A DNA stretch of 64,000 nt from Halobellus clavatus. Lineage in GTDB: Archaea; Halobacteriota; Halobacteria; Halobacteriales; Haloferacaceae. Both the position numbers and the translations under genes were made by a program. Positions 10,090 to 11,662 of this stretch are shown here, piece after piece. Under the pieces are notes generated by a model. That model ran no database searches, was not told the DNA's origin, and saw nothing but the letters and a program-made list of their open reading frames with translations. The DNA is taken from NCBI RefSeq assembly GCF_900107195.1, contig NZ_FNPB01000002.1:124001-188000 (forward strand). Direction: 5' to 3'. How positions within the stretch are numbered: position 1 is the first letter of the stretch; each line of letters begins with the position of its first letter.

Positions 10090-10293
10090 ATGGACGACTC
10101 TCTCGTCCGGTTCGGCACCGTCTTCTTCGCCGTCGTGATTGCGGCGGATCTCGTCGCCGCACTGCTGTTTCCGACCGATCCGTCCCGACAGCTGTTCGCG
10201 ATCGGTGTCGCTGCCGCTGCCGCGCTCCCCCTCGGCTACCTGTTCGTGTACCACGGCGGATACGAACGCCTCTCGACCCTCCTGGACCGATAG
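10090..10293 (+). CDS. Small two-helix membrane protein
   Basis: The 67-residue product has two hydrophobic helices (about 8-27 and 34-54), an N-terminal MDDSLVRF and a C-terminal polar YERLSTLLDR. It begins 13 bases after the preceding stop, so the two are probably co-transcribed. No family is recognised. The compact two-helix hairpin is a common form for haloarchaeal membrane proteins of unknown role. Confidence 0.6.
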   Translation: MDDSLVRFGTVFFAVVIAADLVAALLFPTDPSRQLFAIGVAAAAALPLGYLFVYHGGYERLSTLLDR

Positions 10294-10411
10294 CGGATGT
10301 CGTCTTCCTCCCCGGGGTCCGCACGCTCCGCTGACGCGGCCCCGCGCGAACCGCGGCCCCCCGGGCGGAGTCAGACGCAAGCTACAACTCCCCCGGGTTC
10401 GCTTCCCCTGT

Positions 10412-11443
10412 ATGTTCGCCAGCGTACCCGATATCCTCCGGTTGGTCGTCGTCCCCGTCCTGGGCTGGGCGGCGTGGCGCGACGTCGAGACTCGGCGGGT
10501 GCCGAGTCGGACCTGGCTCCCGCTCGTCGTCCTGGGCGTCGTGCTCCTGGCGTGGGACGCCGTCGGCCACCTCTCGCTCGCGACGTCGGCCGATCTCCTC
10601 TTCTTCGTTCGCGTCGGGATCAGCCTCTTTCTCGTCGCTCCGATCTCGTATCTGTTCTGGCGCCTCGGCGGGTTCGGCGGGGCGGACGCGAAGGCGCTCA
10701 TCACGATCGCTGTGCTCTTGCCGACGTTTCCGACTTACTTCTTCGCGGGCTTCACGCTCCCGGTCGTGGTGACGACGCTCGGCGTCTTCTCGATGACCGT
10801 CCTCACGAACACCGTCCTGCTCGCGGCCGCGTACCCGCTCGGGATCGCCGGACGCAACCTCCTCGACGGCGACTTCCGCTTCCCGGTCAGTTTCCTCGGC
10901 CGCCGGATGGACGTCGCATCGCTTTCGACGGCTCACGGCCGCCTCTATGAGACGCCGGACGGCTTCTCCCGGCACGGGCTCGACCTCGACGCGCTGCGGA
11001 TGTACCTCCGCTGGCGCGGCGCGTCGTTGTCGGACCTCCGCGCGGCTCCCGACACCTTCCGCGACCCCGCGAGCATCGACGAGACCTACCCCGCGACCGA
11101 CGGCGCTGTCGGTGACGGCGCCGGTGGCGATGGATCCCAGCCGACAGCCCCCGACAGTGCCGATGCGGCCGACGGGACCGATGCGGCCGATTCCGCCGCG
11201 GCGATCGCTGTCGACCCGGACGACGAGTGGGGCGCTGCGGCGTTCCTCGACAGCATCGAGGGAACGGCGTACGGCACGTCGCCGGAGAAACTCCGCGGCG
11301 GCCTCGACATCGTCGCCGAGCGCGACGACGTCTGGGTGTCGCCGGGGATCCCGTTCATCGTCCCGATGTTCGTCGGTACCGCCGTCGCGTTCACCTACGG
11401 CGACCTGGTCTTCGGGCTCCTCGGCGCGCTCGGAATCGTCTGA
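10412..11443 (+). CDS. pibD: Archaeal prepilin/preflagellin peptidase (A24 aspartic family, PibD-like)
   Basis: The 343-residue product carries an A24 peptidase membrane domain. The first catalytic Asp is probably in AWRDVETRRVPSRTW (D24), and the second in GGFGGADAKALI (about 84-95), which corresponds to the GxGD motif. Helices surround both sites, and a final helix is at about 315-340. Between them is a soluble insert of about 150 residues with a low-complexity Ala/Asp stretch. PibD removes class III signal peptides from archaellins and type IV pilins at the membrane. No pilin genes lie in the window. The start at 10412 gives the usual short N-terminus before helix 1. Confidence 0.85.
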   Translation: MFASVPDILRLVVVPVLGWAAWRDVETRRVPSRTWLPLVVLGVVLLAWDAVGHLSLATSADLLFFVRVGISLFLVAPISYLFWRLGGFGGADAKALITIAVLLPTFPTYFFAGFTLPVVVTTLGVFSMTVLTNTVLLAAAYPLGIAGRNLLDGDFRFPVSFLGRRMDVASLSTAHGRLYETPDGFSRHGLDLDALRMYLRWRGASLSDLRAAPDTFRDPASIDETYPATDGAVGDGAGGDGSQPTAPDSADAADGTDAADSAAAIAVDPDDEWGAAAFLDSIEGTAYGTSPEKLRGGLDIVAERDDVWVSPGIPFIVPMFVGTAVAFTYGDLVFGLLGALGIV

Positions 11444-11469
11444 GCGGTTCCGGGCGGTCCGCGCGGGAA

Positions 11470-11476
11470 TTTATAT
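11470..11476 (+). promoter_or_regulatory. TATA box of candidate small RNA, copy A
   Basis: TTTATAT lies in the gap between pibD and hisI. It is followed 31 bases later by TGATCTG, exactly as in the second copy at 20754-20760. An archaeal TATA box at this distance predicts a transcription start near 11500. Confidence 0.5.
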
Positions 11477-11496
11477 CCGATGACGGGGCCAGCGGT

Positions 11497-11580
11497 CGTA
11501 TGATCTGTGTGCTCCCTCGCGTCGGGCCGCGGTTGCTCGGCACGCCGGCGCGGGGTCGAATGGGGCGTGCCGACTGTCAG
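11497..11580 (+). ncRNA. Candidate structured small RNA, copy A
   Basis: From the TATA box to 11555 this region aligns without gaps to 20754-20839; I count 65 identical positions out of 86 by hand. Conservation is weakest in the ten bases between TATA box and predicted start and strong in the downstream core (CCGCGGTTG at 11527-11535, CGGCACGCC at 11538-11546). A 10-bp stem TCGGCACGCC/GGCGTGCCGA forms between 11537-11546 and 11564-11573. The RNA could be independent or a leader of hisI, whose ATG is at 11663. No known RNA family was recognised, and the 3' end is a guess. Confidence 0.4.
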
Positions 11581-11662
11581 CCACCGGCCGACCGCCGCAC
11601 GTCGTGCTGATCCGGGCTCCCTGGCAGCAAAAGACCTATCGGCCGTACACGCTTCGGACACA

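Follow-up and report, generated by a model that had tools for sequence, protein, structure and literature searches.

Two elements of an RNA family that is widespread in Halobacteria and undescribed so far were found in the 64,000-nt stretch of Halobellus clavatus DNA analysed here (the window). The predicted RNA is of ~85 nt, is read from the + strand, has its own archaeal promoter and folds as an H-type pseudoknot. The family itself is solid at the level of sequence, and its mechanism is what we infer. A first alignment was built of 18 copies from the H. clavatus genome. In the 5′ part of the family the order is CGAnGG-TTTATAT (BRE and TATA), nnCGA, CGnGGCCA(G), 8 nt, an RTG, one codon and a stop. 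A spacer of 6-7 nt separates the stop from the 5′ strand of the stem P1 (~10 bp), which is followed by a loop of 11-12 nt containing an invariant GCGG. Next is the 5′ strand of the second stem (7 bp), 1-2 nt ahead of P1′. A variable loop, of 6-36 nt in most copies with extremes of 0 and 51 and frequently harbouring its own hairpin, leads to the 3′ strand of the second stem, after which the tail CTGTTCGCC follows. Every copy has the BRE/TATA promoter, the CGnGGCCA motif, a predicted +1 at the RTG, the H-type pseudoknot and the invariant CUGUUCGCC tail. The features of the two copies, with the evidence in brackets, are as follows.

11464-11584, + strand: copy A, whole element, promoter and RNA (covariance model R1, 117 bits, E 5e-28)
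11464-11478, + strand: copy A, BRE/TATA CGGGAATTTATATCC (sequence; position profile of ~156 copies)
11484-11492, + strand: copy A, promoter motif CGGGGCCAG, also found at pilus-like genes (position profile; promoter-pattern search)
11500-11508, + strand: copy A, predicted +1 and mini-ORF position ATG-ATC-TGT, stop lost (profile, codon counts)
11516-11525, + strand: copy A, 5′ strand of P1 CTCGCGTCGG (covariation)
11545-11554, + strand: copy A, 3′ strand of P1 CCGGCGCGGG (covariation)
11537-11543, + strand: copy A, 5′ strand of the pseudoknot stem, TCGGCAC (covariation)
11567-11573, + strand: copy A, 3′ strand of the pseudoknot stem, GTGCCGA (covariation)
11574-11582, + strand: copy A, conserved tail CTGTCAGCC, family consensus CTGTTCGCC (family alignment)
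20748-20862, + strand: copy B, whole element (covariance model R1, 104 bits, E 8.7e-25; synteny)
20748-20762, + strand: copy B, BRE/TATA CGAGCGTTTATATCC (sequence; position profile)
20768-20776, + strand: copy B, promoter motif CGAGGCCAT (position profile; promoter-pattern search)
20784-20792, + strand: copy B, mini-ORF GTG-ATC-TGA at the predicted +1 (codon counts, orthologous loci)
20800-20809, + strand: copy B, 5′ strand of P1 CCCGCGCCGG (sequence)
20829-20838, + strand: copy B, 3′ strand of P1 CCCGCGCGGG, one mismatch (sequence)
20821-20827, + strand: copy B, 5′ strand of the pseudoknot stem, CCGGCAC (sequence)
20845-20851, + strand: copy B, 3′ strand of the pseudoknot stem, ACGCCGG, 5 of 7 pairs (sequence)
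20852-20860, + strand: copy B, conserved tail CTGTTCGCC (family alignment; sequence)

A sequence-only reading of this DNA had already paired the two sites as a candidate small-RNA family. The gapless alignment of 11470-11555 with 20754-20839 that it gave does hold exactly 65 identities in 86 bases, and in a gapless scan of the whole window copy A matches 24 positions on average (sd 4.2), the runner-up having 44 as against 65 for copy B. A covariance-model search returned exactly two strong matches in the window, namely copies A and B. The interval it proposed for copy A (11470-11580) lies within the element, the true span being a bit wider (11464-11584). Copy A does have the 10-bp stem that it drew between 11537-11546 and 11564-11573. 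Of this stem the family keeps just the first 7 pairs (11537-11543/11567-11573), as the second stem of the pseudoknot; the other three are private to copy A. The main stem (11516-11525/11545-11554), the mini-ORF, the size of the family and the common promoter had been overlooked. The proposal that two promoters each drive a conserved structured RNA is supported by plentiful compensatory changes.

Such changes, which had been named as a check on the stem, are abundant in the stems of the family, as is expected of a structured noncoding RNA with a conserved fold. Among 48 copies from other genera, 95.8% of the cells pair and 14 of the 17 pairs are doubly changed (134 cells); the same covariation was seen in 0 of 500 shuffles of these copies, and shifting the strands abolishes it. 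The 45 copies of the H. clavatus genome gave 96.7% pairing with double changes at 12 of the 17 pairs. For the second stem the covariation is independent of the alignment, since model R1 was made without that stem. In the paired columns G.U is found 56 times versus 9 for A.C (46 versus 1 in P1 alone), and therefore it is as RNA of the + strand that the element functions; this asymmetry rules out a DNA cruciform or a function of the opposite strand. A protein-coding repeat was also rejected, the frame not being kept and the third codon being a stop. An additional helix between the GCGG loop and the tail shows no covariation, its pairs being invariant or broken, and enrichment of T-runs past the tail, as for a terminator, was absent in the family alignment. 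Single-sequence folding of copy B gave a z of 1.6, a value from a method that cannot model a pseudoknot. As a complement of rRNA the tail gave nothing convincing. It may be noted that CUGUUCGCC (11574-11582, 20852-20860) has UGUUCGCC in common with the A-loop of a 23S rRNA (L260, ~5241), a likeness that may be due to chance; the draft genome of H. clavatus itself is without rRNA.

A search of the H. clavatus genome with copy A gave dozens of further sites, and many more were found in relatives of the same genus. At E<1e-7 the genome holds ~45 copies, and genome G013 holds 40. On counting at E<=1e-5 with strict filters over 391 Halobacteria genomes, 225 genomes and 48 of 86 genera were positive, the named matches being Halobellus, Haloferax, Haloarcula, Halogranum, Haloarchaeobius, Halomarina, Haladaptatus, Salinigranum and Halegenticoccus. 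In a sample of the phylum all 43 positive genomes fall in the order of the window, and no match was found in other classes among the genomes listed. Rfam 15 gave no match at the gathering threshold within the window, and eight loci compared with it up to E 5 had none either. Viral and phage sequences gave none, and the plasmid collection gave a single record, from Halobellus limi (a replicon of 398 kb). One of 45 pattern matches, in a Rhodobacteraceae MAG (L175), is unsupported by the covariance model, which illustrates that pattern matches alone may mislead. Five genomes of the same genus (G001, G008, G010, G012 and G016) have none or one marginal copy each; their far smaller first-look candidate counts suggest that they are of lower G+C. 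In the papers searched on haloarchaeal sRNA, pseudoknots, minimal ORFs and the regulon described below, nothing matching was found.

The distance from TATA to +1 and a pyrimidine-purine step place the predicted RNA start at the RTG, which is present there in 201 of 203 distinct copies (GTG 182, ATG 19). The third codon of these 201 is a stop in 193 (TGA 155, TAG 24, TAA 14), TGG in 1 and another codon in 7. Under independence ~20 TGG would be expected (Fisher 7.5e-20, which is not a true probability, the copies being phylogenetically dependent). Since the copies are related, change along loci is the better test: over 27 orthologous pairs in two species, the identity of the stop has switched at 9, always staying a stop, and codon 2 differs at most of these loci. 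In 160 of 192 copies a spacer of 6-7 nt lies between the stop and the pseudoknot. Two properties complicate a plain reading of the mini-ORF. It starts with GUG in 91% of the family copies, as against only 6% of leaderless transcripts in Haloferax volcanii (PMC4983044), which could mean weak initiation or some other use of the G; and TAG and TAA are mostly paired with the codon ACG, so the stop signal could partly be a sequence motif. Copy B is canonical (GTG-ATC-TGA) and copy A is without a stop (ATG-ATC-TGT). This loss opens a reading frame of 36 codons from the predicted +1 of copy A (window 11500-11610), which is probably without function.

The promoter is not confined to the RNAs. A promoter-only pattern also matches at protein genes without a leader, whose start codon lies exactly where the RNA has its RTG (CCA plus 8 nt to the ATG), and the reversed-pattern control gave 0 matches in all nine genomes. 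The genes that have it are a T2SSE (TadA-like) secretion ATPase with DUF7283 and DUF7310 of the same cluster, and further DUF7382, DUF7857, two MinD/ParA-like ATPases, a NucS_N/zinc-ribbon protein and a zinc protein; in other genera or families it is found at orthologues of DUF7382, DUF7857, DUF7283 and the ATPase, and at a DUF7311 protein. The sites are:

L286, L288, L291-L294, L296, L299: promoter TTTATnnnCGAnnnCGnGGCCA-N8-ATG, H. clavatus genome and G013
L305-L307, L311, L314, L318-L320, L325: promoter TTTATnnnCGAnnnCGnGGCCA-N8-ATG, other genera

This leaderless gene set is a candidate for an undescribed haloarchaeal regulon. As the promoter of the RNAs matches that of the pilus-like genes, the RNAs and the type IV pilus-like secretion genes very probably belong to one regulon. 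In being leaderless, the pilus-like genes would follow what is usual in haloarchaea (in H. volcanii this applies to 72% of protein-coding transcripts, PMC4983044), which supports the predicted +1. At L321 (G102, Haloferax-like) this promoter motif precedes a gene with a leaderless GTG start, whose protein has clustered cysteines and by eye looks like a Cas4-type nuclease; its first 75 residues gave no Pfam match. The upstream neighbour of copy A (10139-11443) is a prepilin peptidase-like protein (Peptidase_A24), which is possibly tied to the pilus-like regulon, yet copy A is a recent gain at that place.

Taking these results together, the best combined reading, to which we give an even chance, is that the RNAs are co-regulated small RNAs engaging the ribosome in trans. 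The promoter, fold, strand, mini-ORF constraint and shared promoter come from the sequence; we infer the transcription, the ribosome loading and the consequence in trans. On switching on of the regulon, the many dispersed RNA loci would fire together, and a ribosome would load on the leaderless 5′ end of each RNA, make a dipeptide at most and come to the stop codon. With the stop in the A site, the pseudoknot, 6-7 nt downstream, would then sit at the mRNA entry. A ribosome so placed would be occupied, delayed or sensed in trans by the RNA, which may thereby damp or monitor translation in that state. Against this count the bias in orientation and position described below, which is not required of a purely trans-acting RNA, and the absence of the stop in copy A itself.

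Among known systems, the minigenes of the phage lambda bar type have peptidyl-tRNA drop-off and tRNA starvation as their hallmark. As far as they are described in literature cited in PMC8012679, they share with our family a short RNA in which a start codon and a single sense codon are followed at once by a stop, and a proposed action on ribosomes or tRNA. The two-codon ORF of this type is present in the family and not in copy A; the bar RNAs are bacteriophage transcripts without such a promoter or pseudoknot, whereas the haloarchaeal RNAs are leaderless, archaeal, multicopy and vertically inherited. The LhrC sRNAs of Listeria have far fewer copies. They are likewise several paralogous sRNAs under common control (PMC4132741), but without homology to our family and without such an architecture. 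Recoding pseudoknots (stop-codon readthrough, -1 frameshifting) are similar in having an H-type pseudoknot several nt past the decision codon, with a typical spacer of 6-9 nt (PMC3835772), a range in which the spacer of our family falls; unlike them the family has no downstream frame to enter, none being kept since the spacer (6 or 7 nt) and the variable loops differ in length. Finally, H. volcanii has sRNAs with ribosome occupancy and no detectable product; the likeness of these haloarchaeal sRNAs on ribosomes is by description, and a mini-ORF or pseudoknot is not described in the parts of the source consulted (PMC12482152).

Less likely is that the mini-ORF has no role but to protect the fold. 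With a promoter of the leaderless type, an early stop would free the ribosome before the pseudoknot is unwound, and the RNA would act by binding a protein or a partner RNA via two invariant parts, the GCGG loop and the CUGUUCGCC tail. Pairing indeed leaves this loop and tail unexplained, and the RTG has the spacing of the start codons in the protein genes of the regulon. Yet losing the RTG, which nearly all copies retain, would be simpler than keeping both RTG and stop, and the tight fixing of the spacer also argues against mere protection.

The genomic context bears on whether the elements act where they lie. They are intergenic, and 35 of the 40 copies of G013, copy B among them (L160), are at the same locus as a copy of the H. 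clavatus genome; certain loci are common to different genera, and the DUF460-side neighbour of copy B also flanks a copy in Halegenticoccus. On comparing orientation, 148 of 202 copies are directed towards a convergent gene, from its 3′ side and at a median of 31 bp to its stop codon, and tandem-antisense cases number 103 versus 24 tandem-sense. This bias means either that the RNA acts on the convergent gene or that read-through into downstream genes is selected against. Conserved loci and orientation would both suit an antisense or boundary role in cis, in which the RNA tunes or terminates the transcript of the convergent gene, a reading that we hold to be unlikely. The neighbours are unrelated housekeeping genes, a plain antisense RNA needs no fold so constrained, the same bias is expected from avoiding read-through, and the orthologues have no copy-specific conservation (71% identity versus 67% among paralogues, with flanking DNA mostly at 75-92%). 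Only the shared architecture is kept, and therefore the copies look interchangeable and not like guides. A guide RNA with a variable 3′ guide was rejected as the flank and loop are not kept between orthologues, and a TnpB omega/reRNA as the 3′ flanks are unconserved between them and the inspected neighbours are housekeeping genes.

Two copies at unrelated loci of the H. clavatus genome (L060 and L068) have an identical variable hairpin of 26 nt with the remainder diverged, which suggests gene conversion or recent copying. Copy A is, by its absence upstream of hisI in 11 related genomes, a lineage-specific gain. These two observations and the number of copies are what a dispersed non-autonomous mobile element or repeat would have in its favour, a reading that is largely refuted by synteny and covariation and is now very improbable. 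The sequence-only reading would have taken many copies with inverted ends as a sign of mobility; the copies are many, but no inverted ends were seen, nor conserved ends beyond the promoter and tail, and the loci are syntenic, therefore not those of a transposon. The terminal inverted repeats, target duplication and non-syntenic sites of a MITE or IS-derived element are not the pattern found, the compensatory evolution concerns the + strand RNA, and outside chromosomes there is the lone plasmid record from Halobellus limi, with nothing in viruses or phages. Least credible, to the point of near dismissal, is a riboswitch-like leader of hisI, which copy A precedes by 79 bp in the same orientation: in 11 other Halobellus-clade genomes hisI has no element upstream and lies behind its own conserved promoter core AAAGACCTATCGG, and copy B and most others have no co-directional gene downstream (present in 54 of 202 copies, not constantly as for a cis-leader).

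For the reading in trans, the RNA family looks built for meeting the ribosome. We have here a structured RNA family across a whole archaeal class, with up to ~45 genes per genome and outside Rfam, in which the placing of a mini-ORF right before a pseudoknot gives rise to a prediction on archaeal leaderless initiation and termination that can be tested directly, and whose shared promoter is a handle on an uncharacterised haloarchaeal pilus-like regulon. A tentative extension, possible though with less than an even chance, is a class-wide regulon in which dozens of dispersed genes for a ribosome-capturing RNA would fire along with a type IV pilus-like, possibly DNA-handling, machine. If true, this would be a state switch by which translation is braked or sensed globally in step with the activity of the pilus or with DNA transfer.
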